Shown here in pieces: positions 9,146-57,717 of a stretch of DNA of 58,064 bases (its first letter is position 1; every line of letters starts with the position of its first letter). Source of the DNA: Microcaldota archaeon (GTDB lineage: Archaea; Micrarchaeota; Micrarchaeia; Anstonellales; J096). The stretch is taken from contig WAMF01000003.1 of assembly GCA_015522475.1 (NCBI GenBank), forward strand, positions 97,043 through 155,106, read 5' to 3'. The notes beneath the pieces were generated by a model. It was not told where the DNA came from. It worked only from the letters and a program-made list of their open reading frames with translations, and did no database searches. The position numbers and the translations under genes were made by a program.

Positions 9146-11806
9146 CTATTTTTCTGCCAACTTTGAAGAAAAGGGTATTTTAAATTTCTTGGCAAAGTCT
9201 TCGGGGCTTTTAAATCCCAAATATGCAGCCGCAATACTCATTCCATCCGTGACTTGAGAAGGAGGTAAAGGAGAGGGTGGCTTAGGGAGATATTCAAGCT
9301 CTGAGAGAATAAGATGTTTTTTCGGAATGGGAGAAAGAACTATCTTGCGTAACTCTTCATATGATTTAGCATTGTCTATCCTCTTATACATATTGCTAGA
9401 ATATTTTTGAGAGTCTTTAATGTAATCCAAATTATCGTTATAACTAATGTAATCCTTTAAAACAGCCTTTAGGACATGTAGAGCAGGCTTATATCCCTTA
9501 CTCGCTAATAAGAAGATAAAGCCTAGAGAAGGAAGAGAGCTTTGAATATCGGACGAGGTATATGGCGGGAAACCTCTATCATACATATAGCGTTCGTGTA
9601 AGTCTCGATAAACAGTACTCTCACTTATAGCAAGACCATGTTTGGCATAAAAATCAAAATATTGAGGATTTTTCAACCAAGACGGATCTCTAATAGGATC
9701 TATTTCAGGGGGAAGCTGTTTTAAGCTCGGTATAAAGTCTTTCAATTTATAGAGAAGAGAAAAATTTACAGCTCTGTATGCCTCAACAGGATACCTAGGC
9801 AAGTCCTCTACAAAGATACTAAATGAGAAGTTCAACTGCTTCTTATCAGAATCTGACGCATACTTAGAATACCATATGAGCATCTCTTTTGAAATATTTA
9901 GAGCATACATTTTTTCACGTTTAGCAGCATTGGCAAATGAAGAATAATAATGTCTCATAAGACCATTTACAAACATAGAAATTCCTTCCCAAAACCCATC
10001 ATTTGAGCTAAACATAACCTGCTCTAACCCACCTACGTAGCCTATACTTCCGAGAGTTAGGAAAAGCACCAAATATCTCTTATCTTTTTCAGCCAGACTC
10101 CCCAACACTCCCATATAAAGACCTTTCATAGTAGGGGGTAAAGACATCCAGTAATTTAAGAAAGCATGCATATACTCTTTATCGTTTATGTGCTTATACA
10201 ACATTTCAAAGCCCTTCCTCGCAGAGGCAGTGAGTTTAGGAAATGTGTCTTGTGTTACAGGCTTATTCTTTTCTGCATAAGAGATTAGGATGTTCTCTAC
10301 TTTTTTGGAGGGAGCCCCCGGAAAAAATCCTTCAAAAGCATATCTTCTCCGCTGACTTCTGCCCGTAGATTCAGAACTTGCTCCAAAAGATCCACCTCTT
10401 CTTGTATTTCCTTCACTAACCACCCTTTTCTTCGCCGGCACAGACACCTTCAAAACATAGTGCGTTCTATTTCCTTGCTTTTTGGTCAGGATAGTCACTT
10501 TATAGCCTTCCTTCTCAAGGGCTTTCTTCGCAGCTTGGATGCCATTCCCACTTGCAAAAGGTGGCAGCGAAACTGAAACACTCCCTCCAGACTTTTTCGC
10601 CTCCAATATCTTTTCAGACGCTCTGTTAACAGCTACAGCTGCAGCTACAGAAGGAACAAAGAGGGGAATTCTTCCTGTACCTCCTGCAGTTAAGCTAATC
10701 TTTCTAGGCACTTGGCCCTTCATATAGGAGGTAATAAAGAGTAGAGCAAGATTGTTCAATGCCACGGTCTTGTTTTTGTATTTGACTTTTTCCCTTACAA
10801 TATAAAGCATATAAAGATCTTTTTTTCCAATTCTTTTCTGGCTAATGGCAACATAAAGGTCAGGATACTTTTGAGAGATATAAAGGAAGAAGCGGTCTCT
10901 GTCTTTTTTATCTTTAAACACAAAACCCGTTCCTACCAGTTTCCCTTGGTTAACAAAGGCGAACTCTCTGCTGTTTTTTAAGATGGCCTCATAGCGCTTT
11001 TGTTCGTCGGGCGAGAACTTAACTTGCTGTTGAGGTTGTTGAGATGTGAATGCAGTAGCAGGCGAAGCTTGCCTCTTCTTTTTCCTATAGGCCTCACCTG
11101 CTTCATAAGCCATCTTAGCCATGTCATACATGAGATAGTAAAATGCCTCTAGCGAGAGTGATTTCTTATTTTTATCCCCAAACTTACGCCCAGCCATCAA
11201 GAGATTGTATTGCTCCCTCAAAGTTAGCTGGTTTTTCTTAACGAAATTAGAGAAGGCCATGCCTTTTTTGAAGCTGTAAAGCCTGCAAATATAGCCTAAC
11301 TCGCTCGCTCCAACTGAGCTTGCTTCAGATGTTCCCTCAGTGCCTCGGGGCGTTATCTCGCCTAAGTACCCTTTCAACGCATCCCATAAGTTCTTATAAC
11401 CTTTTAGATGGCTCTTCAGCTTGCCGGAAACCAACGCCTTCAAAAACGTGTTTGTGCCGAAGTTGATTTTGTTTTTGTCTGTGTCAATCAAGAGCTTTTT
11501 CACTTCATCTGCCTTCATGCTTCCAGCGAGCAGATATATAATCCAATTCCGCATAAAGGCCCATGGATCTGAAACACCTAAACTCTTCAGATGTTTACCC
11601 CATTTTTGGAATAAAGGTGCAAGTGTTTTATCCTTCATAATGTCGGTTGCCATCTTATATACTGGGCTGTTCTCCAGCGCCTTCTTAGCATCTGCTTGTG
11701 AGAAAGAAGGAGGTTTGAATTTACGCCCTGTCGGAGTGACCACGGGGTTTGGATATGTAGTATGTGTAGTGTTGTCTTCTTGTCCACCATACATGCTGCT
11801 CACCAT
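9146..11806 (-). CDS. large orphan protein (886 residues)
   Basis: I do not recognise any domain. The product is largely soluble, basic and helical, with a central region of mixed strands and helices (about residues 290-480) and low-complexity Ser/Gln/Arg linkers near 240-265 and 470-490. Hydrophobic stretches such as LALLFITSYM and IPLFVPSVAAAVAV are short. The frame opens at 11824, but a TATA-like CTTTTTAAAC at 11827-11836 lies directly before that ATG; the ATG at 11806 falls where a leaderless transcript from this box would begin, so I prefer it. There is no obvious operon partner. Probably a lineage-specific protein. Confidence 0.75.
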   Translation of the reverse strand: MVSSMYGGQEDNTTHTTYPNPVVTPTGRKFKPPSFSQADAKKALENSPVYKMATDIMKDKTLAPLFQKWGKHLKSLGVSDPWAFMRNWIIYLLAGSMKADEVKKLLIDTDKNKINFGTNTFLKALVSGKLKSHLKGYKNLWDALKGYLGEITPRGTEGTSEASSVGASELGYICRLYSFKKGMAFSNFVKKNQLTLREQYNLLMAGRKFGDKNKKSLSLEAFYYLMYDMAKMAYEAGEAYRKKKRQASPATAFTSQQPQQQVKFSPDEQKRYEAILKNSREFAFVNQGKLVGTGFVFKDKKDRDRFFLYISQKYPDLYVAISQKRIGKKDLYMLYIVREKVKYKNKTVALNNLALLFITSYMKGQVPRKISLTAGGTGRIPLFVPSVAAAVAVNRASEKILEAKKSGGSVSVSLPPFASGNGIQAAKKALEKEGYKVTILTKKQGNRTHYVLKVSVPAKKRVVSEGNTRRGGSFGASSESTGRSQRRRYAFEGFFPGAPSKKVENILISYAEKNKPVTQDTFPKLTASARKGFEMLYKHINDKEYMHAFLNYWMSLPPTMKGLYMGVLGSLAEKDKRYLVLFLTLGSIGYVGGLEQVMFSSNDGFWEGISMFVNGLMRHYYSSFANAAKREKMYALNISKEMLIWYSKYASDSDKKQLNFSFSIFVEDLPRYPVEAYRAVNFSLLYKLKDFIPSLKQLPPEIDPIRDPSWLKNPQYFDFYAKHGLAISESTVYRDLHERYMYDRGFPPYTSSDIQSSLPSLGFIFLLASKGYKPALHVLKAVLKDYISYNDNLDYIKDSQKYSSNMYKRIDNAKSYEELRKIVLSPIPKKHLILSELEYLPKPPSPLPPSQVTDGMSIAAAYLGFKSPEDFAKKFKIPFSSKLAEK

Positions 11807-11853
11807 AGATTTATGAATTCGCATGTTTAAAAAGCTATCTCAGGTCATTTGCT

Positions 11854-12642: not shown

Positions 12643-13095
12643 ATGAAGGCCTTTGTATACTCACTAGATGCATTCATTTCCCTCCTCATCTCCGTATTCG
12701 CTATTCAGCTCCTTATAACTTCACTCACATATCTAGATTTTAAAGAGCCTCTTATGTTCAAGGCAAAGATTTTAGCCACAGATCTTGCCAGAATGGTTGC
12801 TGAAAAGGCGGCGATGCCCGGCAGCCATATAACAGACTGTTATAGCCTATCACGCGTTATTCCACCTCAATACAGCTATGCTATAAGCGACGTGAAGGGC
12901 CTGATAAAAGGTTGCTATAGAGGCAATGTAGCAAACCCCAAGATGATTAGAGCCAGCGCTTCAGCTATAGTGCTCGATTACAAGGAGAAAGACGTCGCGC
13001 CCCCCTCATATCCTATATGCTCGCTCAAAGACATGCAACAACCTCAGCCCGGAGAGCTTAAAATAGACAGAATACAAGTGGTGGTCGCTATATGA
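12643..13095 (+). CDS. pilin-like membrane-anchored protein (SLDA-type N-terminus)
   Basis: First gene of an operon joined by 4-nt overlaps. The 150-residue product begins MKAFVYSLDAFISLL and continues as one hydrophobic helix of about 22 residues, followed by a polar domain with two or three Cys. The segment YSLDAFI matches YTLDVLI in the protein at 52761-53228, so the two are paralogues in two pilin-like loci. It lacks the canonical GQxSxE signal but has the same short charged N-terminus and helix. The frame is open from a GTG at 12523; I prefer the ATG at 12643 because the signal-like segment then lies at the N-terminus. Its function as a minor pilin is inference. Confidence 0.7.
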   Translation: MKAFVYSLDAFISLLISVFAIQLLITSLTYLDFKEPLMFKAKILATDLARMVAEKAAMPGSHITDCYSLSRVIPPQYSYAISDVKGLIKGCYRGNVANPKMIRASASAIVLDYKEKDVAPPSYPICSLKDMQQPQPGELKIDRIQVVVAI

Positions 13096-14735
13096 TAAGA
13101 AGAAAAAATATTGACCAAAAGGAGGCCGCAAAAGAAGATAAAGGCAAAAGCGGCCTGTCTAAGAAGGCATTTTTCCTTTCACTTATGGCATTCATGATTC
13201 TCATGTATATAACGGCGTCGCTCTCGTTGAAGTTTGCGGCTGTGGAGGAAAGCAGAGGCACATATATGGAAATGATGCGCCAGAGCACATACAGAATGAG
13301 CTTCTCGGCCATAAACAAGCGCGCCTTAGAGCAGATGTTTCACGACATATGCAGAGCTGATTTATATAGGCTAGCGGAGCACGCCGCGCTTCATCCAGTG
13401 AAGGTTTCAAGCCTCGATAATGTGCCGGCCCCTTATGACAAGCTGGGCTTAGTGAAGCTAGCCATGTATCAACTCATTGTATACGGGGGAGCAAGTGACA
13501 ACATATTCAGCGACGGCAAAGGTATGAATGATTCCCCTTCACTCACGACCCTGCTTCACGAGATGAACCAATCCTTAAAGGATTACCACCTTTACATAAA
13601 GAGCTACAATTTATCCAACGAAACAAGCATGCTCCTTGAAATGGCAGACTATAAAACAGTGCATGTAGCGCTCAATTTGAGCATTGAAGTAGAAGATGAG
13701 CGAGGTCTAGGCGCGTTCAATCTCAGCTTCCCACTCGAGGCCAATATAAGCATAGAAGGTATGCCAGACCCTCTCATTAATAGATATCTCAATCTCAGTG
13801 GATTTGAAGGCCGTAAGTACATATACTTCGGCCCTTATGAATACTTCCCAAGTTTAACTGGGCCTATCGAAGTGTGGAGAAAGCCGAATGTAACAAGAGG
13901 GCAGGGATGGGTTTCTGGTTATATTGTAACAAAGCCGGATATAGCAACAAACTACATTCTATTCGGCAACTTCTCAAGCATCATGCTCACGTCAGCGAAG
14001 GGCTACATTATAAATGGTAGTAAAGAAAGGGGTAGCATAGACTGCAAGAGCGGCAAAAAAGAGACTGTTGAAAAAAGCTTCAATGCTTTAGATTACATGA
14101 AGCAAAGCGACGACACGTGCAAGGCAGCCCTAACCCACGATATAAAAGAAGCTTTCTTCATAAACTACAATGGCACATTAGACCTTCAACCCAACAGATA
14201 TTACTTGCTCATAACAGATGTCACACCGCCAGAGGCCGAAGGCACAACAGATCCTGTAACTATCTCTGAAGCTGCTGACAGCTTAAGAGGAGTAGACGTC
14301 TACGACATATCGGACCAAAGATTAGCTATGTGGAAAGGTTATTACTTCCATTGGAACGCACAATACAAAGACAAGGGCTACAGTGACGCTCCTCCCGATT
14401 TTCTCCAACGACTTCTCCTAAACGGACAGGACTTGCAGGACGCGGATAACGGCATATTTTCCTTCATTGTAACAGAAGAGCTTAACACGCAAGATATGTC
14501 GAATCCTTTGAGCAGAGCAGGCTTTGAAATGGCAAGACAAGTCTTCTCTAAGAAAAGTTACAATTTAGTCGTGCCCAAAGGCTTCTCTGGCTGCAAAGAC
14601 CCCTGGATGTGTAAGATGCCTCTAGACCAATACAGCGTCGGGAAAATGGCCATGAGTGACAAGTTGGCAAATGCCTTGGGCCTCAAAAACATAAGCTGTT
14701 CATGGCACAATTCATGGGGGGGCTGTTACTCATGA
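13092..14735 (+). CDS. large membrane-anchored extracellular protein of pilin-like operon 1
   Basis: A 547-residue protein whose ATG overlaps the previous stop (ATGA). A basic cytosolic N-terminus of about 24 residues is followed by the helix AFFLSLMAFMILMYITASL, then a long extracellular part with many N-glycosylation-type sequons and Cys pairs near residues 310-330 and 500-545. No enzymatic motif is seen. Its place in the operon matches that of the 278-residue protein at 53210-54046 in the second locus: both are the largest anchored members of their sets. A structural or adhesive surface role is inferred from topology only. Confidence 0.75.
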   Translation: MIRRKNIDQKEAAKEDKGKSGLSKKAFFLSLMAFMILMYITASLSLKFAAVEESRGTYMEMMRQSTYRMSFSAINKRALEQMFHDICRADLYRLAEHAALHPVKVSSLDNVPAPYDKLGLVKLAMYQLIVYGGASDNIFSDGKGMNDSPSLTTLLHEMNQSLKDYHLYIKSYNLSNETSMLLEMADYKTVHVALNLSIEVEDERGLGAFNLSFPLEANISIEGMPDPLINRYLNLSGFEGRKYIYFGPYEYFPSLTGPIEVWRKPNVTRGQGWVSGYIVTKPDIATNYILFGNFSSIMLTSAKGYIINGSKERGSIDCKSGKKETVEKSFNALDYMKQSDDTCKAALTHDIKEAFFINYNGTLDLQPNRYYLLITDVTPPEAEGTTDPVTISEAADSLRGVDVYDISDQRLAMWKGYYFHWNAQYKDKGYSDAPPDFLQRLLLNGQDLQDADNGIFSFIVTEELNTQDMSNPLSRAGFEMARQVFSKKSYNLVVPKGFSGCKDPWMCKMPLDQYSVGKMAMSDKLANALGLKNISCSWHNSWGGCYS

Positions 14736-19588: not shown

Positions 19589-21463
19589 TCAGCTCTTTAT
19601 GAGGTAGCCAAGTAATTCTTCGAAATCCTCTCCTTCACGGGTGAGCAGGTTTATCAGCTTATACACCGCACCTTTCGGATCCTTCCCTTCAGCAAGGTAT
19701 TTGTCTATAAGTAGAGCAACCATCTCAACATGCTTTGGATCGTCAGCTAACTTCTTATTTTCAGCAAGTAGCTCTATGAATATATCACCTAAATAATAGA
19801 CATCCTCGCTGGATTTTATATGCCTTCTTACATGGGGGAAGCCATTCTTAAGAATAAGTCCATAATTTACTTTCTTCTCAAAGGCCTTCTTCCCTTCCTC
19901 AATGAATGCTAAAAGGATCTCCTTAGACGTTAAAATGTCCATGACGGCTGTGAATCCATCTTTTAGGGCAAGCTCGGGAGAGATATCGTTTCTTTTCGCA
20001 GAATCTATCATTTCAAGGAAAGTATCGCCTATGAGCTTTAAATCAGAATCTAAATTGAAGTTATTTTCTACATTACGCAATATATCAGCAAGCAGTATCC
20101 CGTAATTCTCCCCTGCCTCATTAGCAGCCAGCATTAACCCTAGAAGAGATTCTCCTATAGAAGATATATCTCTTGGGGGGCTATTGTAGATATTGTTTAT
20201 TAAGGTCAAATCACAATCTAAATTGCAACCCTTCTCCAAACTAGTTTCCAAGAGCCTAAATAACATACTTTCTGAGTCAAACCCTGGAGCACTTCTTGAT
20301 ATTCTCTTTATCTTAACGAAGAGATCCTTAAAAAACCTCACAATAGAGGTGGGTGAATAATCCTTCAAAAGCAATTCATAAAGCCTTGCACCTATATAAG
20401 TTGGGTGACCCTCATACCATATAAAGTCTTCATGATATCTACGATTATGTTTGACCCAATAATGTGTAAGTCTCCTCTTCACCTCTATGAAAACCCTATT
20501 AAACCTTCTGTAAAATACTACGTCATCATTAAGGATCCTCTCCTCTAATTTGAGAAAGGAGAAGAGGGTTTCGTCATTACGTATCTCTGACGCTATAAGA
20601 GAAAGAGTAGTCAAAGCACTTATATCCCAATAGTCTACCCACTCTTCAAAAATATTATCTTTTAATGGCTGAGGAAAATATACCTCCTTTTCTATAGCTT
20701 TAGTTTCTAAGTCAACAATAGCCCTGAATCTATCTTCTGAAATGAGTAAAGAGGCAACTCTAGAAAAGCCCTCTAAAATTTGATCGAAGTCTATTCGCTT
20801 TTCCATAGCTAACTTACCTAACTGAAGAAAAGCCTCCAAGCGCTCCCTGGAAGTGAGAAGGTGTTTAACCCAGCCAAACCCTATCCGATTGAAAGTACCA
20901 AGGTGACCATTAACCCTAGGAAGAAGCACGTCTTTTTTATCTAAGGTCTTTAATTCAATAATTTGTCTTCCAGCCCAGAGTATATCCTCACGTGAATTTA
21001 TGAGATGCCCCATCAAGAATAAAAACTTTGAAACGTGCTTCCAATCAACACCTTGTTCATCAGCTTCTCGCCTTAGAGTTACAAATGCTTCACCCAAAGC
21101 AAAGACATCCTCTATAGAGTTAACGAGGCCCTCGTGGTACTTGGATACATGAGCAGAGAGAGTGAAATGATGTTTTAGATCATAAGTTGTCTCAGCTTCA
21201 AGCCTATATAGAAACTTCTTCAACGAATCAACAGAGTGGGGATCGTCCACATGCAAATACGTAGTGATACTCTGCACGGCTCTCTCAACATCCTCTTCTA
21301 TTTTTTTCACACCCTCTTCACCAAACCTTTTCTTCAATTTACGCTTTATTGCGGAGATATCCCTTGGTATAGAAGACCTCTCCACAGAGACTTTCTTATC
21401 CTTAAAAGCTTTCCTCTTCTTCTTTTCTCTACTAACATGGGATAGAGATTTATCTTTTCGCAT
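19589..21463 (-). CDS. large alpha-helical repeat protein, function unknown
   Basis: A 624-residue soluble protein without recognised domains. After a Lys-rich N-terminus of about 60 residues it is built from loosely repeated helical units of about 35-50 residues, each with a pattern like S-x-E-D/R-x3-A, then a second helix with E-K-x-V/I-D/N-Y/F, and I-L/K-G-F-x3-A/R (for example TSRERLEAFLQLGKLAMEKR and TSKEILLAFIEEGKKAFEKK). This resembles HEAT/TPR-like scaffolds. It has no signal peptide. It is flanked by an intron-bearing tRNA-Ile and a long gene-free stretch. A protein-binding role is inference. Confidence 0.72.
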   Translation of the reverse strand: MRKDKSLSHVSREKKKRKAFKDKKVSVERSSIPRDISAIKRKLKKRFGEEGVKKIEEDVERAVQSITTYLHVDDPHSVDSLKKFLYRLEAETTYDLKHHFTLSAHVSKYHEGLVNSIEDVFALGEAFVTLRREADEQGVDWKHVSKFLFLMGHLINSREDILWAGRQIIELKTLDKKDVLLPRVNGHLGTFNRIGFGWVKHLLTSRERLEAFLQLGKLAMEKRIDFDQILEGFSRVASLLISEDRFRAIVDLETKAIEKEVYFPQPLKDNIFEEWVDYWDISALTTLSLIASEIRNDETLFSFLKLEERILNDDVVFYRRFNRVFIEVKRRLTHYWVKHNRRYHEDFIWYEGHPTYIGARLYELLLKDYSPTSIVRFFKDLFVKIKRISRSAPGFDSESMLFRLLETSLEKGCNLDCDLTLINNIYNSPPRDISSIGESLLGLMLAANEAGENYGILLADILRNVENNFNLDSDLKLIGDTFLEMIDSAKRNDISPELALKDGFTAVMDILTSKEILLAFIEEGKKAFEKKVNYGLILKNGFPHVRRHIKSSEDVYYLGDIFIELLAENKKLADDPKHVEMVALLIDKYLAEGKDPKGAVYKLINLLTREGEDFEELLGYLIKS

Positions 21464-26536: not shown

Positions 26537-27721
26537 TTATTCGCCTATCTTGTGGGCTAAACCCATCCAATTTATGATTTGAGGCATAACTTCTTTGCCA
26601 TAGAAGTGACCCAAACCTCCATTGTGAGAATAAAGCTCTGCAAACTTCTTTTGATTGTCTCTACCCACTTGAGAGCCATAAGCTAAGAAAGGCACACCAT
26701 GGCCCGTATGTCTGCCTAAGCTGCACGGCGTCGCATGGTCTCCTGTAATTACAATGGGATCAAAATAGGGCTTGACTGCTTTGACAATTTCTCTATCGAC
26801 GCGCTCCACTATAGACCTCTTGCCTTTGCAGTTGCCGTCATGAGAAAAGCTGTCAGTAGCTTTTACGTGCAGGAAAACAAACTTTTTGCCCGCTTTTGCA
26901 GCCTTTATTGCCGCCCGCGCTTTTGCAGAGTAGTCGCTGTGAGCGTCGCCCGTAGCGCCCTTGATGTCTGGCGTTTCCATGCCAAGGTAGCGTGCCACAC
27001 CTTTGTATAGAGCACCTCCTGCAACAGCTTCTGCTGAAAGACGGTGCTTTTCTTCAAAGGACTGTATAGGCTTGTACATGCCAGCGCCACGAATGAGGAT
27101 TGTGTTCGCCCTCTTGCCTCTCAGGCGCTTGTTTACCTCCTTTATGTATGCATTGAGAAGCTTAACCATACGCTTATTGCCCTTGAATGGTTTGGGCGGC
27201 ACACCTACGTCGTGAGGATCGCTATCGGAGATATCGGGCGAAAGCCCTTTACCTCGCATAACCAGAGCACCCCTATGCTCTACAGTAGAATGGAATATAA
27301 ATTCCACACCGTCGATAGTTATGCCTTGCAAGAGCTTAGCTAACTTTCTTGCCTCTGACGTTGGGATTCTTCCTGCTCTCCTGTCGACGATCTTGCCGGC
27401 TTTAAGTGTGGCAAAATTCGTCCTAAAGGCCACATCGCCTTTTTTAAGTTTAATGCCTACACCAAGCGCTTCAAGAGGGCCTCTATCAGGGTATTCTGTT
27501 TTTATGTTGTAGCCAAAAAGCGTGAGATGGGCTGTATCGCTGCCGGGAACAAGCCCTCTACCCAAGACATGCATGACACCTTGTATGCCATCTCTAGCTA
27601 ACGCATCTATATGCGGCTTTTTAGCCTTGTATAAAGCTGAGCTCGTCGATGGAAGCTCTCCTAAACCATCCATGATTAAAAGCAAAGCGGCTTTGCCCGT
27701 CCATTCCACCATCTTTTTCAT
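26537..27721 (-). CDS. apgM: 2,3-bisphosphoglycerate-independent phosphoglycerate mutase, archaeal type
   Basis: Glycolytic/gluconeogenic enzyme interconverting 3- and 2-phosphoglycerate, of the alkaline phosphatase superfamily. The 394-residue product has the metal-binding MDGLGE at the start, the nucleophile region GSDTAHLTLFGY, RTNFAT, DPHDVG, and the C-terminal metal motif GDHATPCSLGRHTGHGVP. All are as in archaeal ApgM and the length is normal. A downstream hypothetical gene follows within 27 nt. Confidence 0.96.
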   Translation of the reverse strand: MKKMVEWTGKAALLLIMDGLGELPSTSSALYKAKKPHIDALARDGIQGVMHVLGRGLVPGSDTAHLTLFGYNIKTEYPDRGPLEALGVGIKLKKGDVAFRTNFATLKAGKIVDRRAGRIPTSEARKLAKLLQGITIDGVEFIFHSTVEHRGALVMRGKGLSPDISDSDPHDVGVPPKPFKGNKRMVKLLNAYIKEVNKRLRGKRANTILIRGAGMYKPIQSFEEKHRLSAEAVAGGALYKGVARYLGMETPDIKGATGDAHSDYSAKARAAIKAAKAGKKFVFLHVKATDSFSHDGNCKGKRSIVERVDREIVKAVKPYFDPIVITGDHATPCSLGRHTGHGVPFLAYGSQVGRDNQKKFAELYSHNGGLGHFYGKEVMPQIINWMGLAHKIGE

Positions 27722-27845: not shown

Positions 27846-28361
27846 TTACTTTATGGCCATCCTATTGTCATAAAGCTCAGATGCTTCCGACGAAAGTAAT
27901 ATGAATGAAATTTGAGCAATGCGCTCGCCGGCCTTGAGCGTTAAAGGCACATTGTGTACATTCTTTATCTCAAGAAGAACGCGGCCGTCGGTACCGGGTT
28001 GCACAAGCGTCACGCCGGGGTGCGTAGATAGGCCCAGCCTAGCGTAGCCACTTCTCCCCTCGACACGCGCTGCCAAGTAAGAGGGCAATTTTATCCTCTC
28101 CTTAGTTACGCCAAGAATAAAGGCGTTGGGCTCAAGCACAAGCCTTTTGCTCTTTTTCTTTATATAATAGGATTGCCATGGCCTTTTAGACAGCTTTGTA
28201 GAAGAAAGCTCTATAGATTTCACGCTGCTCTTCAATACCCACCATTCGTCACTGACGGCTAAGTCATAGCTTGCCGGCCCCAGAAAGCGCCTGTTGAAAG
28301 GGGAGATGCCCAACTTCTTGGCTTTAACCAAAGATAGGATTTCATTGTCAGATAAAAGCAT
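27846..28361 (-). CDS. dcd: dCTP deaminase (Dcd)
   Basis: Pyrimidine nucleotide enzyme of the dUTPase-like trimer fold. The 171-residue product shows GPASYDLAVSD, the substrate loop VEGRSGYARLGLSTHPG, PGTDGRVLLEIKN with the catalytic Glu expected in deaminases, and PLTLKAGERIAQISF. The Glu favours deaminase, or bifunctional deaminase-dUTPase, over plain dUTPase. I use the ATG at 28361 because the family starts M-x-LSD; the ATG at 28370 would add three residues. Confidence 0.88.
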   Translation of the reverse strand: MLLSDNEILSLVKAKKLGISPFNRRFLGPASYDLAVSDEWWVLKSSVKSIELSSTKLSKRPWQSYYIKKKSKRLVLEPNAFILGVTKERIKLPSYLAARVEGRSGYARLGLSTHPGVTLVQPGTDGRVLLEIKNVHNVPLTLKAGERIAQISFILLSSEASELYDNRMAIK

Positions 28362-28499
28362 GAATGCCATTGAAAGCGCGCATATAAAAAACTATCCCTA
28401 ATTTCCTGCTGCTCAAGCTAGACGCACCTTGTCTTTCCTTTGACGCTACGATGTTACATTCCATCTCTTTCAGCGTTAGTAGCAGCTTCACTTGCTGTT

Positions 28500-30764
28500 T
28501 TAGTGCCTCGTCCGTGTTCTTCTATGTGACCTTCTCCTTCTGTGGCGCTTGGAGGGTTGCCTGCGTGAATTGCGTGAATTGTGAGAAGGGCGAGAACGCT
28601 CCCTATGGTAGTAATAGGCGCGTCTGAACGCACGAAGCTCTCTGTTGATGAAAACGGCGCGTCTATCCGGCACATTCACAAAGCCCTTCTCGAGGCTCAA
28701 ACTGCCCTCATCTACACGTTCCCTTGCAATGTCGCCGTAAACAGAGATGAGATACTTAGCCCAAGCCATGATGTTGTTGAGAGGATTTATCTGCACAAAG
28801 CCTCTGCCGTCGTCAGTGAACACACGAACCTCGTAGTGAGTATGGGGAGCTTTTGCATCGCCTGTATCTCCCATATAACCTATAAAATCCCCTCTGTTCA
28901 CGAGGTGGCCAATTCTAAGTCTCGGCATTTTTGCTAGATGTGCATAGAAGTCGATGCCAGGATGAGGGGCGTTGGTGAGTATACCAATGTAATAGCCATA
29001 TGTGGCACTGAATGCCTTGCAGCAAACCCTGCCGCTCCTTAAGGCATGAAGCTTTGCACCATAGTGGTCTGCCAGGTCGATGCCAGGATGCCCTTTAATG
29101 ACTCCTCCATAGCTCCTAGGCTCAGAGAAGAGAGAAACGAGGCGAACCTTTCCGTCAGTTAAGCCATCTAACAGCTTAAGGGCAAAGAGGTTTAAGCCAT
29201 AGTTTGTAGCACGAGGTCCATTGTAGGCGGGAATCGAAACCTTATCTCCTACGTTCAAGAAGTACTTTCTGTAAAGGTTTGCGTTCGCCCTTCTAAATTG
29301 TGCTCTGTACTTCAAAAATTCCGCTTTAACTTCTGCATCGTCTAGATTGAGATAGCCAGAATAACGCTGGAATGCCCATTGAAGAAGTGAAGCGAGCGTG
29401 TTGCCTCTTTCAGCAGTTATGACAAAAGGTTCTCTAGCTATAAAGTGATCAAGATAAGGATCCTTTTTAGAGAAGAGATAGCGCACAACCTTAATAGCCT
29501 CCTTATCCTCTTCTGAAAAGAGTTCTCTGGGTTTAGTAGCTTCCGGCTTGTTCAGGCCAAGAGCAGGGAAAAGCATGGCTAGCCCTCCAACAATCAAACC
29601 CTCTATAAAACCCTCTATGAACTGCCTTCGTGTAATACCGCGGCCCACAGTGCGCTCTTCTTCAGCTTCGCGCCCATACTTTCCAACGGCACTAGCCATC
29701 CCTTCTTTTAAAACAACAGTCTTCTTTCTAGGTTGGGCGTGCATGATTTTCTTTAGTGCAATCTCAAAGTTGTATAAGGCCTCACTTATATCGTAGCGTT
29801 CTCCTCTTTCCTTAAGCCCATATAAAGCAGAGTGTTCAGTTTTAGCAAAATTCTCAGAGTGTCTAACAAAAATAGGGTTTGGAGCATCGGCACCATAAAG
29901 CGAGAAAACTCTGGAAACAGCAGACACAAGTCGTGACTTACCCTCTTTTGATGCCATGCTTCGAGATAGATTATTTACTATTACATGAAGTAGATTCCTT
30001 TCCGCGTCTATAAGAGCCTTATGCTCACTCAAGAAGCTGTCGAGAAGTTGCAGGCTATCTTGGAATTGTGATTGATTAGCAGCTCCTAGAATGAAGAAAA
30101 TGGCATCCGACTGAGAGAGAATTTGAAGCACATCCTCATTCTGCAACACGTCTTCAGACGCGCCGGGCAAATCGAATATGAGCGAAGCTGCTGCCTTTAC
30201 ATTGTTCTCTGCATCAAGCCCCAACTTACTCCTCATAGCATGCGCCGCAAGAATGAGGGGTGTATTCCAATAGGCGTTTACGGCGCCTACATCCTTAGGA
30301 TGTACAACCTCTTCGAAAAGCGCAGGCCTAAAGGAAACCTCGCCCAGGAATTGCTCAATAACCTCCCTACGAGCGTGTAGCTTCAGCACCTCACTCATGC
30401 GAGAAGCACGAAGATAAATCGGATTACGAAGAAACTGCTCGATACTTTCTTCTTTTAGAGTCTTCTTCGGAGAGTTATTTGAACTTAAAAGCCTGCCAGC
30501 CAAATAGTCTAGATAATTCTTTGTAACACCCCCTTGTGCAGGGTCCCTATCAAATATAAACACCATCTGCTCCATATTGTGGAGAAGCTCAGCTATTCTA
30601 AATGACAAAAGGCTCTTGCCCACTCCACCCTTGCCAATAAAAGAGAACACAAAAGGGTAAAGCTCTCTTTCCTCTATAAACACCTTCCATTTCCTTATGG
30701 TCTCTTCTGCATTCTGCCTTTGCAAAGTAGAAGCCTTTGGGGTGCGTTTATGTGTCCAAAACAT
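28500..30764 (-). CDS. ParA/MinD-like ATPase - membrane segment - LysM-like - M23 peptidase fusion
   Basis: A 754-residue multidomain protein. Residues 40-340 are a ParA/MinD-type ATPase with the deviant Walker A GKGGVGKS (44-51), FDRDPAQGG and a Walker B-like LIFDLPGA. Residues 378-404 are TRRQFIEGFIEG plus a hydrophobic helix, which looks like a twin-arginine signal-anchor but is internal. About 446-512 resembles LysM (FVITAERGNTLASLL to LNVGDKVSIP). Residues 545-665 form an M23 (LytM) peptidase with ligands H559 and D563 (HPGID), H609 and HTH at 641-643. The tail is Arg/Ser/His-rich and probably disordered. This puts a cytosolic ATPase and an external zinc peptidase on one chain, though archaea lack murein. 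It is divergent from uppS. All domains look intact. Confidence 0.85.
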   Translation of the reverse strand: MFWTHKRTPKASTLQRQNAEETIRKWKVFIEERELYPFVFSFIGKGGVGKSLLSFRIAELLHNMEQMVFIFDRDPAQGGVTKNYLDYLAGRLLSSNNSPKKTLKEESIEQFLRNPIYLRASRMSEVLKLHARREVIEQFLGEVSFRPALFEEVVHPKDVGAVNAYWNTPLILAAHAMRSKLGLDAENNVKAAASLIFDLPGASEDVLQNEDVLQILSQSDAIFFILGAANQSQFQDSLQLLDSFLSEHKALIDAERNLLHVIVNNLSRSMASKEGKSRLVSAVSRVFSLYGADAPNPIFVRHSENFAKTEHSALYGLKERGERYDISEALYNFEIALKKIMHAQPRKKTVVLKEGMASAVGKYGREAEEERTVGRGITRRQFIEGFIEGLIVGGLAMLFPALGLNKPEATKPRELFSEEDKEAIKVVRYLFSKKDPYLDHFIAREPFVITAERGNTLASLLQWAFQRYSGYLNLDDAEVKAEFLKYRAQFRRANANLYRKYFLNVGDKVSIPAYNGPRATNYGLNLFALKLLDGLTDGKVRLVSLFSEPRSYGGVIKGHPGIDLADHYGAKLHALRSGRVCCKAFSATYGYYIGILTNAPHPGIDFYAHLAKMPRLRIGHLVNRGDFIGYMGDTGDAKAPHTHYEVRVFTDDGRGFVQINPLNNIMAWAKYLISVYGDIARERVDEGSLSLEKGFVNVPDRRAVFINRELRAFRRAYYYHRERSRPSHNSRNSRRQPSKRHRRRRSHRRTRTRH

Positions 30765-30925: not shown

Positions 30926-31657
30926 GTGACCGAGACGGCCCATAAAGAAAACAGAGAGAATAGAAAAGCTGCCCCTCTTAAACACATTGCCTTTATTCCA
31001 GACGGCAACAGGAGATGGGCTAAGCTTAAAGGCAAAACGTTGTGGGAAGCATACGGCGTGGGCATGCGCAAAATAAAGGACGTTTTAGAGTGGTGTAAAG
31101 AACTCGGCATAAAAGAAGCAACGTTTTGGGGTTTCAGCATGGAGAATTTCAAAAGAGGCGAGGAAGAAAAGAAAACTATTTGGGAACTTTTTGAAAAGGT
31201 CCTAATGCGCATAATGAATGAATACAGAAAAGCAGAAGGGGAAGAAAAAGGCAAGGTGAAGGTTCGCTTCCTCGGTAGATTGCATTTCCTGCCAGAGAAG
31301 ATTAAGGCTAAGATGGAGGAGCTCATGGAAGCCACGAGAGAAAATGGGCCATATATAGTAAACATCCTTGTGGCCTATGGAGGAAGGGCTGAAATCACCG
31401 ACGCCATAAACCGGTTGCTTAAAGAGGGTATAAAGACTGCTGATGAAGGGGTTGTCAGTGAAGCGCTCTATTTAAAAGATGATGTTGACTTAATTATAAG
31501 AACAGGAAGGGAAACACGTACGTCTGGCTACCTGCCATGGCAGAGCCCCTATGCAGAATGGTATTTCTCAAAGAAACTTTGGCCCGACTTCGACAAGGCG
31601 GAGTTTCACGCTGCCATTGAGGACTTTAAATCCCGTGAAAGGAGGTTTGGAACATGA
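30926..31657 (+). CDS. uppS: cis-polyprenyl diphosphate synthase (UppS family)
   Basis: Extends isoprenoid diphosphates in Z configuration to make the lipid carrier (dolichol-type in archaea) for glycans. The 243-residue product shows HIAFIPDGNRRWAK with the catalytic Asp, GFSMENFKR, DLIIRTGRETRTSGYLPWQS and the E-rich C-terminus. It starts with GTG at 30926. It overlaps tfe by 4 nt (ATGA) and is divergent from the M23 fusion gene, hinting at a shared envelope-related context (inference). Confidence 0.95.
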   Translation: MTETAHKENRENRKAAPLKHIAFIPDGNRRWAKLKGKTLWEAYGVGMRKIKDVLEWCKELGIKEATFWGFSMENFKRGEEEKKTIWELFEKVLMRIMNEYRKAEGEEKGKVKVRFLGRLHFLPEKIKAKMEELMEATRENGPYIVNILVAYGGRAEITDAINRLLKEGIKTADEGVVSEALYLKDDVDLIIRTGRETRTSGYLPWQSPYAEWYFSKKLWPDFDKAEFHAAIEDFKSRERRFGT

Positions 31658-44153: not shown

Positions 44154-45785
44154 CTAACGCTCTCCTCGGACAAGTGAATAAATACCATACCTAAAGTCCT
44201 TCTTTGAGTTAAGCTCTTGCCAGATTTGATCAAGAAGAGCAGATTTGATCTCTATATACTTATCTCTAACAAGAGGATTGTGGCCAATGCTGTTCCTTTG
44301 GCCTTTCCCATTAAAGCAAAACATGACATCTGAGCTGCCCTCGCAGTTGTGACTGAAATAAATGTCGCTGCTGTGGGCGGAGTTATCCACTTCGAAGCCG
44401 CGCTTAATGTCGTCGCTCATGTAAGCGTTGAAAGTAAATTCACTGGAAACCACCAAAGAACTACCAAACACATAGACACTCCTTCGGGAATAAATGCTAA
44501 AGGCTGTTCTCTTTGTGAATGCAGCAACCGGTGCCTTGTATACGTCCCTTGCAGAGACTACCACAACCACATCATTGTAATTTGAGGATTGATCATCTAA
44601 AAACTGGAGAGATATGGTGTATATTTTTGAAAGCCTCTTCTTCAACTCAGCCAAGTTAGAGAAGCTCAGTGAAGATGCTTCTGATTCTGATAGAGTAATC
44701 TGACGAATAATATCCCCTTCCATGCGTGTAGTATAACTTTTCTCCACGTTAATAGGAAGTTTATACAATTTCCTAGAGATATAAGTAGAGTAACCCATAA
44801 ATGTACTTGTTACAGGTGAATAATCATAATAAGGCGTTTCCTTTGTGAGCCACTTCTCGTATGCATCTATACCACCTTCTAGCGGCTTGCCCAATAGCAG
44901 TTTACTCGTGGCAGTAAACGCCTCTTCTATGGGCTTTTTATCAAAGGGGACCTCATACTTCTCTCCTTTGAGCTTTTCTTGTACAATGCGCTTTGTCTCT
45001 TCCCTCTCCTCAGTACCATCCATGAATAAGTCAAAGAGACTTACATGTTTCTTAGCCTTAAGATTGTCGCGGATCTCTTCAAGCAATGCGGCCTTTATCT
45101 GCTTATACTTGTCGGGGCTGAGCTGCAGATTGCCGACGGTGTATCGAGCGCCGTATTGAAAGAAGGAGAAGAAAACCTCGTTGCAATTTATGCAGTTGCT
45201 TGTGTAGTATATGTCATTCACGTATTCTAATTCGATACTTTCGAAGATCCTTGATGTAAGTGTCCTTTCATCTCCATTATATCCTCGGGAAAGTATAACA
45301 AACTGAGAGTAACCTCCAATCCTACTCCTAAACACATATTTTTGATTACGTATATGAGCTCCATAAACGACATACTTAGAGCCAGCTATGTCGTAGCTGT
45401 TGTATATGTATTGACTATCTACAACTTTACTACTCTTTTCAACAAAGTTGCTCTTTCCCAAAGCTACGCTGCCGACATAAACAAACTCTTCTCTCAGCCT
45501 TTCTACAATGGTATCAATGTCCTTTATCTCATCTATACTAAGCTTAATTCTCCTCAACTTATCCAACTCCTCTAAAGCAGCTACGGGCAGGGCTTTGTAT
45601 TCAGCCGGCACGCTCACAGCTTCTCTGCTTAGGGCTGAGGGCTTTTCTATAAGCTCGCCTGCCATATGTTGCTTAAGTAGCTCCTCATAATCCTTTAGCT
45701 CTCCAACCTCATCTCCAAGCACAATCTTACATGTCTGCTTCCAGGCCTGGTTGAGCTTTTCATACAATACACGCTCATCCATCAT
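44154..45785 (-). CDS. internally duplicated Asn/Ser/Tyr-rich repeat protein
   Basis: A 543-residue orphan with two homologous halves (about 8-235 and 290-540). Each half begins with a helix pattern A-W/F-x2-T-x-K-x2-LG then YEE/YEKWL, passes through a Ser/Tyr/Asn-rich strand-repeat region (NSYDIAGSKYVVYGAHIRNQ; DNSAHSSDIYFSHNC), and ends with a shared block: SNC/HNC, VFFSFF/VMFCFN, G-N/H, D-KYxxIKxALLxxI. The strand-rich part resembles solenoid proteins of ultrasmall bacteria and archaea in which SxDxxxS/CxxC units stack. I chose the ATG at 45785; a TTG at 45812 is also in frame. It is divergent from an Lrp-like regulator gene, 163 nt away, suggesting control by it. Confidence 0.75.
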   Translation of the reverse strand: MMDERVLYEKLNQAWKQTCKIVLGDEVGELKDYEELLKQHMAGELIEKPSALSREAVSVPAEYKALPVAALEELDKLRRIKLSIDEIKDIDTIVERLREEFVYVGSVALGKSNFVEKSSKVVDSQYIYNSYDIAGSKYVVYGAHIRNQKYVFRSRIGGYSQFVILSRGYNGDERTLTSRIFESIELEYVNDIYYTSNCINCNEVFFSFFQYGARYTVGNLQLSPDKYKQIKAALLEEIRDNLKAKKHVSLFDLFMDGTEEREETKRIVQEKLKGEKYEVPFDKKPIEEAFTATSKLLLGKPLEGGIDAYEKWLTKETPYYDYSPVTSTFMGYSTYISRKLYKLPINVEKSYTTRMEGDIIRQITLSESEASSLSFSNLAELKKRLSKIYTISLQFLDDQSSNYNDVVVVVSARDVYKAPVAAFTKRTAFSIYSRRSVYVFGSSLVVSSEFTFNAYMSDDIKRGFEVDNSAHSSDIYFSHNCEGSSDVMFCFNGKGQRNSIGHNPLVRDKYIEIKSALLDQIWQELNSKKDFRYGIYSLVRGER

Positions 45786-45948
45786 TTTAACCACAAAAAT
45801 ATAGCGCTGCAAAACTATTTAAATGTTTTCAGAAATAATTTTTTACAAAAAATGTGCATTTCCAACATTTTGTGAAGTTTGTAAAGTAAAATTCAAAAAA
45901 GTGGCAAAAGTTAAAAAAAGTTAAAAAATAATAGGTAGAAAAATAGAT

Positions 45949-54095: not shown

Positions 54096-55793
54096 ATGCT
54101 TGTAAAGACGAAGTTGGATAGGCTGGAGGAGATTGAAGGAAAAAGGGTGGAGTTGCCATTCTTATCAAAATATCTGGAGATCCCACTTAGGAGACTTGAG
54201 CGAATAATGGAACGACTCGAAGATGAAGAGATTGTTGAGCTTGAATACCTGCCTATACCATTCACAGCTCCGCGTGTCTTTGTAAAAAAGGTAAGACATG
54301 TGTATGAGCCGGAGATAACTGACGTGGGAAAGAAGCTTAAAGAATACAGGACATCTAACGAAGATGGCACATACATTGCTAAGGTTAAGATTCTCGAGAC
54401 TAAGAACAGCAAGAAGATTTATTACTTGGATTATCCCAAGCCCGCAAGCATCACATCGGCTTACTTAGAAAAGCTTAAAGAAGAGATCTCCATCCACTTG
54501 CCTCCAGAAACTTCGCTTATGACAGAAGAGGATAGGAAAATAAAGATATACTCTAGGCAGCTGAAGTTATCTGTAAAGGGCTTAAAAGATATTGTATTCG
54601 AAGAAGAGGATGCGCGTGTCTTGGCGGGCACAATAAGGGCAGAGATGTACGGCGTAGATGTGCTCGAATACCTTCTCATAGATCCTCACATAGAAGAAAT
54701 TGTCATAAACAACTCAAAAGTGCCCGTCCTTGTATATCACAGGGTGTATGGATGGCTAGAAACAAACATACTTATATCCTCAGAGGACGCCATACACAAC
54801 ATCTCCGTCAAGATAGCGAGAAGGCTTGGCAAACAGATAACCATATTAAATCCTCTCTTAGATGCACATCTCATAAAGGGTGAGAGAGTTAATGCCACGC
54901 TCTACCCTATATCCGTAAAAGGCAACACGCTAACCATACGAAAATTCTCCAGTGAACCCTTCACATTGCCCATGCTTATAGCTAACCATACACTATCTGC
55001 AGACATGGCTGCTTTGCTATGGCAAGCCGTTGAACTTGAAATGAATATTATATTCGTTGGAGGCACAGCTAGTGGCAAGACGACAATGATGAATGCCGTG
55101 CTTATGTTTCTAAATCCGGAGCAGCGTATAATCACTATAGAGGACACGAGAGAACTTAACTTCCCTTCGACGTACAAAAACTGGATTCCACTCATAACAC
55201 GGTCACCCAATCCAGAGGGCCTAGGCGAAGTAAGCTTGCTAGATTTATTAGTCAACAGTTTGCGCATGCGTCCAGACAGAATGGTTGTCGGTGAGGTCAG
55301 AAAGAGGGAAGAAGCCATCGTTATGTTCGAAGCTATGCACACGGGGCACAGCGTCTATGCAACATTCCATGCGGATACATCTGCTATAGCCATGCGCCGC
55401 TTCCAAGAGCCCCCTATAGACATTCCAAAGGAGGAGCTTGACTCTCTAGATTTGATTGTAACGCAAAGACGAGACAGAGAGACAGGCATAAGAAGGACTC
55501 TAGAAATCTCAACAGTATTTCTAAGAGAAGAAGCTGCAGAAATCTCACCCATATACGCCCATAAGATACGCAACGACACTTTTGAGTTTGTTGAGTTGCC
55601 CATAAAATACCGTGAGAAGCTTATGCTTTACTCGGGCATGCTCGACCAAGAAATTAACAAGGATTTGAAGGAAAGGGCAAAGACCCTCAAGCTCATGGTG
55701 AAGAAAGGCATAATGAAGATGGAAAATTTGGAGGGCTTATTGCAGCTCTACTACAAAGATAGGCAAGCATTCTGGCAGAGGTTGAAAGAATGA
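54096..55793 (+). CDS. type II/IV secretion system ATPase (TadA/VirB11/ArlI family)
   Basis: Hexameric motor ATPase that drives pilus assembly at the cytoplasmic face. The 565-residue product has a long N-terminal domain, then the C-terminal ATPase: Walker A GGTASGKTT with Lys328, Asp box ITIEDTRELNFP, Walker B-like SLRMRPDRMVVGEVRKREE, and the His box MFEAMHTGHSVYATFHAD. These define the archaeal GspE/TadA superfamily. It is followed, with 4-nt overlaps, by two T2SSF membrane proteins, the standard archaeal pilus module. Confidence 0.95.
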   Translation: MLVKTKLDRLEEIEGKRVELPFLSKYLEIPLRRLERIMERLEDEEIVELEYLPIPFTAPRVFVKKVRHVYEPEITDVGKKLKEYRTSNEDGTYIAKVKILETKNSKKIYYLDYPKPASITSAYLEKLKEEISIHLPPETSLMTEEDRKIKIYSRQLKLSVKGLKDIVFEEEDARVLAGTIRAEMYGVDVLEYLLIDPHIEEIVINNSKVPVLVYHRVYGWLETNILISSEDAIHNISVKIARRLGKQITILNPLLDAHLIKGERVNATLYPISVKGNTLTIRKFSSEPFTLPMLIANHTLSADMAALLWQAVELEMNIIFVGGTASGKTTMMNAVLMFLNPEQRIITIEDTRELNFPSTYKNWIPLITRSPNPEGLGEVSLLDLLVNSLRMRPDRMVVGEVRKREEAIVMFEAMHTGHSVYATFHADTSAIAMRRFQEPPIDIPKEELDSLDLIVTQRRDRETGIRRTLEISTVFLREEAAEISPIYAHKIRNDTFEFVELPIKYREKLMLYSGMLDQEINKDLKERAKTLKLMVKKGIMKMENLEGLLQLYYKDRQAFWQRLKE

Positions 55794-56680
55794 ATATAGG
55801 CCTGCTCCTCATATTCCCAGAGAAGCGTATGAAGCGCATTATCAGGCGGTTCGAGTTTCTGGGAAAATTTCTGCTCCAAGTTTTTCCATTTGTTAAAAGC
55901 GACCTTCGGGACATCGAATACGATGGTAAGGCAACAGTCTTTCTAACAAACGTGTTTTTAAGCGCCGTCTTCTGGGCGCTCGTCGTGGGATGGCTCTTTT
56001 ACACGATACTTACCAACCAAATAAGAGCAAATCCTCATGCATTGGGCATTAGCATAGCTATAGCCTTGTACACTTTTGTGATGCATATTATATTCAACGT
56101 AATACACCCTAGGGCAAAGCGTATAGATATGACAAAGAGGATGGACAGAGACCTTAGCTTTGTGTTGAAGGATATTATAATACAGCTAAGGTCGGGCGTT
56201 ACTTTATACGACGCCTTTGTGACTGCTACAGAAGGCAGTTCGTACGGCGTAGCAAGCAGAAAGCTTAGAGAAGTTGTAAGCAAGATTTCTCAAGGCTACA
56301 CATATAAGGAGGCGCTTCAAGAGCTGGCAGCCAGCATAAAATCAGACTTCATGAAAAATGTCTTATGGCAGCTTGCCAATACATTCCATGTAGGTGGCAA
56401 CGTCGAGCCTGTATTCAAGAGCATGGAACAGACACTCAAAGAATACCACGAGATGAGTATACACAGTTATCTAGAATCAGCAAATATTATGCTCTTCGGC
56501 TACCTTCTATTTGGGGCTGTTTTACCCGCTATCTTCCTCATAACAGGCGTCGTCATAGGCATGGTTATGGGTATTAACATATCTGATGCATTCGTAGTAG
56601 GAACGCTTGGTCTTTCCCTTCTTGTAGAAGCATTCCTCGTAGGCCATCTTAGGGCAAGCAAGCCAGCGGTGATGTCATGA
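55790..56680 (+). CDS. T2SSF/TadC-like pilus platform membrane protein 1
   Basis: A 296-residue membrane protein with the T2SSF domain: a cytosolic helical bundle (DLSFVLKDIIIQLRSGVTLY, FVTATEGSSYGVASRKLREV, EALQELAASIKSDF) between hydrophobic helices at about 50-105 and 225-290. The platform anchors the assembly ATPase to the membrane. The ATG overlaps the ATPase stop (ATGA). Confidence 0.9.
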   Translation: MNIGLLLIFPEKRMKRIIRRFEFLGKFLLQVFPFVKSDLRDIEYDGKATVFLTNVFLSAVFWALVVGWLFYTILTNQIRANPHALGISIAIALYTFVMHIIFNVIHPRAKRIDMTKRMDRDLSFVLKDIIIQLRSGVTLYDAFVTATEGSSYGVASRKLREVVSKISQGYTYKEALQELAASIKSDFMKNVLWQLANTFHVGGNVEPVFKSMEQTLKEYHEMSIHSYLESANIMLFGYLLFGAVLPAIFLITGVVIGMVMGINISDAFVVGTLGLSLLVEAFLVGHLRASKPAVMS

Positions 56681-57717
56681 GCATATACAAATTCTTCGGC
56701 AATATACTGCCAGAAAGCTTCATAGCAAAAGTCGAGAAGCGGTTGATATACGCTGGCGTAAAGGATGTGCCCGAGATATGGGTTGGTAGAATCATTGTCC
56801 TCACCCTATTACTTACTGCTGTATTTGGATTAAGCACGCTCGTCGTGCAAACATATGCTCCTACTGCTTCTGTAACCTTCCAAAGCTTAACGCTGAAACT
56901 CACGTCTATTTTTTGGGGACTTGCTGTTCTTATGCTATTCACAATTCCCTTAATCTTCTACCTTCATATAACCATGTTGTCGGCGATACGTGTGGAGAGA
57001 GCTGAATCTGAGTTCCCAGACTTTCTCTATAACATAGCATCTGTTATAAGAGGGGGAATGACACCCGTGCAAGCGTTTTTCCTCTCTGCAAAGACAAAGG
57101 AGTTTGGCATATTGGGGAAAGAGGCACGAAAAGCCTATGAAAAAGCTATTACAACAGGCATGATAAGCGTCGCATTCAGCTCGATGGCAGAACGCATAGA
57201 CTCAGAATACATAAGAAGCTTTGCCACATTTTTTAAAAGGGCCGTAATATCTGGTGGCAAGATTGTCGAACTACTAGAGTCGTACGCCGATTACTTAAGA
57301 GACATTCTCTTTCTAAAAAAGGAGCTGAAGCAACGCACAACGAATTACATGATTTTCTTGGGTATGATTTCAGCAGTCATAATGCCCTTCCTTCTCTCGC
57401 TGGCCTACACGTACATACTTTTCTCTCAACACTTGGTAGAAGCGGCAAACATCCAGCACGGGACAACAAATGCTGTAATAACTATAGGCATGCAGCCAAA
57501 AATAACTCTTCATCTAAGCTATCTTCTCCCATCCATCTTCATATATATGCTTCTCTCAGGCCTTCTCACTGCAGCGCTCATAGGTGTGTTGAGAAAAGGG
57601 CGCATTATATTTGGACTCAAGTATGCTCTTCTTGTCTGGTTTACGTCGTTTATAGTATTCTACATATCTCTCATGTTCCTAACGGGATTCATGGGTATGG
57701 CTGGCATTGGCCATTAA
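56677..57717 (+). CDS. T2SSF/TadC-like pilus platform membrane protein 2
   Basis: A 346-residue paralogue of the upstream platform protein, overlapping it by 4 nt. Two N-terminal helices (about 30-50, 70-100) are followed by a helical bundle (SEFPDFLYNIASVIRGGMTP, KEARKAYEKAITTG, DYLRDILFLKKELKQR) and at least three C-terminal helices. Two separate platform proteins in tandem resemble TadB/TadC or the archaeal Ups/Aap arrangements. It closes the pilus operon; 190 nt without a gene follow. Confidence 0.9.
   Translation: MSIYKFFGNILPESFIAKVEKRLIYAGVKDVPEIWVGRIIVLTLLLTAVFGLSTLVVQTYAPTASVTFQSLTLKLTSIFWGLAVLMLFTIPLIFYLHITMLSAIRVERAESEFPDFLYNIASVIRGGMTPVQAFFLSAKTKEFGILGKEARKAYEKAITTGMISVAFSSMAERIDSEYIRSFATFFKRAVISGGKIVELLESYADYLRDILFLKKELKQRTTNYMIFLGMISAVIMPFLLSLAYTYILFSQHLVEAANIQHGTTNAVITIGMQPKITLHLSYLLPSIFIYMLLSGLLTAALIGVLRKGRIIFGLKYALLVWFTSFIVFYISLMFLTGFMGMAGIGH

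Follow-up and report, generated by a model that had tools for sequence, protein, structure and literature searches.

What would an archaeon do with a single protein in which an ATPase of the MinD/ParA class is joined to a peptidase of the M23 family? The window considered here, that is, the whole stretch of 58,064 nucleotides that was analysed, carries such a gene: positions 28500-30764 of the minus strand form one ATG-to-stop frame of 754 codons without an internal stop, in which a deviant-Walker-A ATPase of the MinD/ParA class comes first, then a single hydrophobic segment, then a divergent module resembling LysM, and then an M23 peptidase. The initial annotation had proposed one polypeptide with a ParA-like ATPase, a membrane segment, a LysM-like module and an intact M23 domain, and both the uninterrupted frame and the profiles agree with it. 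It had also suggested a search for the same fusion in relatives, and both other genomes of the genus (G001 and G002; 2/2) encode it in one frame, of 691 and 522 aa, with 34% and 31% identity to the window protein. As far as the sequence goes, a single gene, the domain order, the intact motifs and conservation within the genus are established, and the anatomy of the protein is well supported. Its parts lie as follows.

28500..30764, minus strand: fusion gene, 754 aa, a single frame with orthologous fusions L003 and L004
29730..30662, minus strand: N-terminal ATPase domain of the MinD/ParA class, residues about 35-345 (Pfam and structure-profile matches)
30612..30635, minus strand: deviant Walker A motif GKGGVGKS, residues 44-51, with G44, K45, G46, G47, G49 and K50 invariant in three orthologues
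30543..30551, minus strand: Walker A' motif, D72 and D74, invariant in three orthologues
30162..30176, minus strand: Walker B motif FDLPG, residues 197-201, with D198 and P200 invariant in three orthologues
29616..29633, minus strand: twin-arginine-like motif TRRQFI, residues 378-383, missing from the orthologues
29553..29609, minus strand: single hydrophobic segment, likely a membrane helix, residues 386-404 (top Kyte-Doolittle window)
29229..29429, minus strand: LysM-like module with a long insertion, residues about 446-512, containing an invariant WAFQRY
28821..29093, minus strand: M23 peptidase domain, residues 558-648 (PF01551, E = 2.2e-14)
29076..29090, minus strand: HPGID with zinc ligands H559 and D563, invariant in three orthologues
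28938..28946, minus strand: YAH with H609, invariant in three orthologues
28836..28844, minus strand: HTH (HxH) with H641 and H643, invariant in three orthologues
28503..28628, minus strand: basic, Arg/His-rich C-terminal tail, residues 713-754 (residue counts)

The explanation that we favour, although tentatively and with somewhat less than even confidence, is that of a bitopic surface murein endopeptidase directed against bacterial walls, with a cytosolic ATPase setting the place or time of its action; the topology, the substrate and the coupling to ATP are what we infer. The ATPase domain would remain in the cytosol, and the helix at residues 386-404 would act as a type II signal anchor, presumably Sec-dependent, leaving the LysM-like module and the M23 domain outside. 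The latter would be an active endopeptidase, for which the murein of neighbouring bacteria is the likeliest substrate, as the archaeon itself seems not to produce murein. ATP-dependent dimerisation is a general trait of MinD/ParA-class ATPases, and the ATPase, which one would expect from its family to dimerise on ATP, would most likely cluster, position or switch the protein, so that cutting outside the cell might be restricted in space or time, for example to a site of contact. The proposal of a single-chain, ATP-governed transmembrane murein endopeptidase, placed or switched by its MinD-class domain and used against bacteria by a small archaeon, is the more doubtful of the two.

With respect to the presumed outer part, the M23 domain exceeds the Pfam cut-off comfortably (53.8 bits against 28.7), and all five metal or catalytic residues (H559, D563, H609, H641 and H643) are invariant in 3/3 orthologues, so that the peptidase first read as intact does appear to be so. 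It is the sole M23 detected in a source genome that is 88% complete, and its best-scoring solved relatives by sequence are the bacterial enzymes TagE, LytM and lysostaphin. A second HPGID at residues 601-605 (window 28950-28964) is not kept in the orthologues and is likely a coincidence. Single-sequence AlphaFold2 models reached pLDDT values of 34 and 36 and were set aside. The LysM-like core is stretched by an insertion located after the invariant WAFQRY. No Pfam LysM match was obtained at E 0.001 in the three genomes with the fusion, nor on the whole window protein; a segment of the G001 orthologue scored 19.6 bits against PF01476, whose cut-off is 20.9 (E = 9e-4). In addition, hhalign gave a probability of 84% against the LysM copies of G003 plus one LysM-like G001 segment, a weak test that compares one pair of small alignments of hand-picked segments. 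The sub-cut-off score and the profile-profile comparison together make 'LysM-like, divergent and expanded' an apt description, and the earlier LysM-like call fits in this form. An M23 protein from Pseudosulfitobacter matches the fusion, but its alignment needs large gaps to extend across the LysM-like part, and the bacterial protein has no Pfam LysM at E 0.01; for both reasons it was not used as support for the module.

Is there a bacterial wall within reach of such an enzyme, or might the archaeon cut its own? No match to the Mur ligase middle domain was obtained in G000 (the source genome) to G003, all incomplete, and among 16 genomes it matched in three (G009, G011 and G021); self-murein is unlikely, as no Mur ligase was detected in the genus, these absences being provisional because of the completeness of G000. 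SLT-type murein-cleaving proteins are present in G001 and in G003, which belongs to the same family but another genus. Archaeal M23 hydrolases are reported to kill bacteria (PMC12352652), and for murein transglycosylases of DPANN archaea, binding and degradation of bacterial walls have been proposed (PMC8204110; PMC10936187). An attack on bacterial walls is plausible and would not stand alone in the lineage, given its SLT and LysM proteins and the lack of a Mur ligase match in the genus.

Several of these proteins merit description in their own right. The SLT protein of G003 (L073:3480-5429) has three LysM repeats, and its gene adjoins one on the opposite strand that is dCTP-deaminase-like by eye; the fusion likewise has a dcd-like neighbour. 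In G001, a 657-aa SLT protein (L080:406-2379; SLT E = 5.8e-7) has an N-terminal TRRE before a hydrophobic stretch, whose arginines can also be read as positive-inside charges rather than as a Tat signal, since TatC was undetected; it has no Pfam LysM at E 0.01, although inspection by eye shows a LysM-like segment. A small SLT-like protein at a contig end of G001 (C1:190-531, in the first 2 kb, L076) lies beside a bacterial-looking helicase-like frame, and this contig end may be foreign or misjoined. Finally, a 1053-aa frame in another family of the order (L006, G011:C26) matches both SLT and M23.

Next to the murein of bacteria, the substrate that has to be considered is the envelope of protein or glycoprotein of the archaeon itself, which the fusion could remodel, for instance at division, where the ATPase would place it MinD-style at the division site. 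M23 members outside murein metabolism exist, the ATPase resembles the MinD/FlhG class, and the gene occupies a chromosomal site whose surrounding housekeeping genes are conserved in the genus, the nearest of which are the following.

30926..31657, plus strand: divergent cis-prenyltransferase (uppS-like; PF01255, E = 7e-66), adjoining the fusion in G001 too
27846..28370, minus strand: dCTP deaminase-like (dcd-like) neighbour (PF22769, E = 2.6e-36), kept in G001
26537..27721, minus strand: apgM-type phosphoglycerate mutase (PF10143), kept in G001 and G002

Around the G001 fusion, TFE, uppS, the dcd-like gene, apgM and the next two genes are kept; around that of G002, apgM and further genes are kept on the side that the contig covers. 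The divergent uppS neighbour pointed out in the initial annotation is thus confirmed and recurs in one other genome, but nothing ties uppS functionally to the fusion. Against remodelling of the own envelope, however, the LysM-like module points toward amino-sugar polymers, the fusion is limited to one genus, and it evolves faster than its neighbours uppS and apgM, which are 64-67% identical between G000 and G001. Rapid divergence of the fusion could also mean weak constraint, a point against the favoured surface endopeptidase. On balance, we regard a role in the archaeon's own envelope as unlikely. Elsewhere in the window, a T2SSE ATPase gene followed by two T2SSF genes (54096-57717, plus strand) represents assembly genes of the type IV pilus or archaellum type, and large frames for which Pfam gives no match at E 0.001 lie at 9146-11824, 19589-21463 and 44154-45812 (minus strand) and at 13092-14735 (plus strand).

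The ATPase domain was called ParA/MinD-like at the outset, and what is weak in single-sequence Pfam searches becomes clear when the three orthologues are taken together. For the window protein alone, ParA (E = 4e-4) and CbiA (E = 7e-4) match at the P-loop, both weakly and under the cut-off; the CbiA profile matches 3/3 orthologues (best E = 2.6e-11), and a profile of the three orthologues matched the structures of ArsA, FlhG, MinD, NifH and ParA with E values down to 2e-11. Judged by its motifs and profiles, membership in the deviant-Walker-A MinD/ParA class is secure, with no subfamily assigned. Identity between genomes is 25-29% in the ATPase domain versus 42-51% in M23, and the retention of the ATPase motifs despite such divergence argues for a working, if predicted, ATPase. 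Either a partner that changes or weak constraint may lie behind the rapid divergence; no partner for the ATPase domain was found. It is conceivable that this domain takes no part in the peptidase reaction and serves the delivery or membrane insertion of the fusion itself, in the manner of Get3 or SRP, as SIMIBI relatives include targeting ATPases and ArsA is the top structure match of the profile. The strongest ArsA alignment, however, covers mostly the P-loop region, whereas FlhG and MinD align across about 170-180 residues, and we know of no targeting ATPase fused to its own client, so that a delivery role seems quite improbable.

Whether the two halves of the favoured surface endopeptidase lie on opposite sides of the membrane depends on the segment between them. 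Residues 386-404 form the top hydropathy window (Kyte-Doolittle peak 1.93) and have counterparts in both orthologues (1.86 and 1.57), which upholds the hydrophobic helix of the initial annotation; in 3/3 orthologues the segment is the most hydrophobic stretch of its own protein and sits at the same domain junction. The candidate helix is moderately hydrophobic, a crude insertion sum is positive in 3/3, and the flank on the ATPase side has a net charge of +3, 0 and +3 across the three proteins. This hydropathy suggests a bitopic protein with its N-terminus inside and its C-terminus outside. The Tat-like element that had also been claimed did not hold up: the motif is present but unconserved, and TatC was detected in 0/16 genomes of the lineage, which are incomplete, with positive controls. 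As the twin arginine is private to the window protein, Tat export was rejected, and the arginines of TRRQFI are read as positive-inside flank charges. At the other end of the protein, the last 70 residues hold 23 K/R against 6 D/E (29 against 4 in the orthologue L003), and the orthologue L004 has no such tail; where present, in 2/3 orthologues, it could hold the outside part on an anionic surface. The region around the helix would also matter if the gene had two products, the fusion and a truncated M23 protein whose translation would begin internally, around residue 356 or 397. ATG codons do occur at both positions, and GGAGG lies a few bases upstream of the second, but the orthologues lack the TRR segment that follows ATG 356, a start at 397 would lose most of the hydrophobic segment, and the GGAGG belongs to glycine codons; we consider two products very improbable.

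The distribution of the fusion is narrow. A profile of the three fusions, run against the genomes of the order (84) and of the phylum (301), gave full-length matches in G000-G002 only, and among the loci returned, with about 1.5 kb on each side, no other frame in the phylum combined M23 and the ATPase, which occur there as separate proteins. On this sampling the fusion occurs in no other genus and in 3/3 genomes of its own. No relative of the fusion was found in the viral contigs scanned; no site in the phage and plasmid records reached 80% coverage of the query, and the best of the matches listed there span the C-terminal half only. As these searches gave no full relative, a viral origin was rejected. 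The source is an archaeon: its genome has a full-length match to an archaeal SSU model, which also matches bacteria among the controls, and its size and gene content would fit the DPANN group. That the gene is an assembly or binning artefact, as the draft state of this genome (0.91 Mb in 23 contigs) might lead one to fear, is excluded for practical purposes, as the same fusion recurs in three genomes of well-separated sequence with kept neighbours, and the window holds archaeal TFE, aIF2-alpha and a Nop-domain protein.

In the open-access literature, judged by lists of search results, no paper was recognised with this domain combination, and each known system resembles the fusion only in part. 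MinD, FlhG and ParA share the deviant Walker A, A' and Walker B motifs; these ATPases are soluble proteins or attach through an amphipathic end, whereas in the fusion a hydrophobic helix and an enzyme follow the ATPase domain. Archaeal M23 hydrolases of the Woldo type likewise combine an archaeal producer and M23 with a presumed wall-binding module (PMC12352652), but Woldo has two PG-binding-1 domains behind M23, and the available text of that report describes no such hydrolase that has an ATPase in the cytosol together with a helix in the membrane. The murein-like lytic transglycosylases of DPANN also place a wall-cutting type of enzyme in presumably murein-less archaea, although theirs is a glycan-cutting domain and not a peptidase, and no ATPase is mentioned in the available text (PMC8204110).

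The predicted topology is also that of LmdC (PMC10945521), which is bitopic with a cytosolic N-terminus, one helix and M23 outside, and is positioned from inside. Unlike the fusion, whose cytosolic part would itself be the ATPase, LmdC binds a separate bactofilin through a short cytosolic tail, and it is bacterial and acts on self-murein. In FtsEX-EnvC, according to PMC12505981, cytosolic ATP binding drives the activation of murein cleavage outside, much as the cytosolic ATP state would govern it in the proposed fusion; there, however, the ATPase is of the ABC type, several polypeptides are involved, and EnvC activates amidases and does not cut. If the proposal is true, bacteria rather than archaea would be the likely partners or prey of the genus, and a cell would have a one-protein route by which its inner ATP controls a wall-cutting enzyme outside; the three divergent orthologues provide natural versions for testing. 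Such a fusion would unite positioning from inside, as in LmdC, with ATP control of the kind seen in FtsEX-EnvC in one chain.
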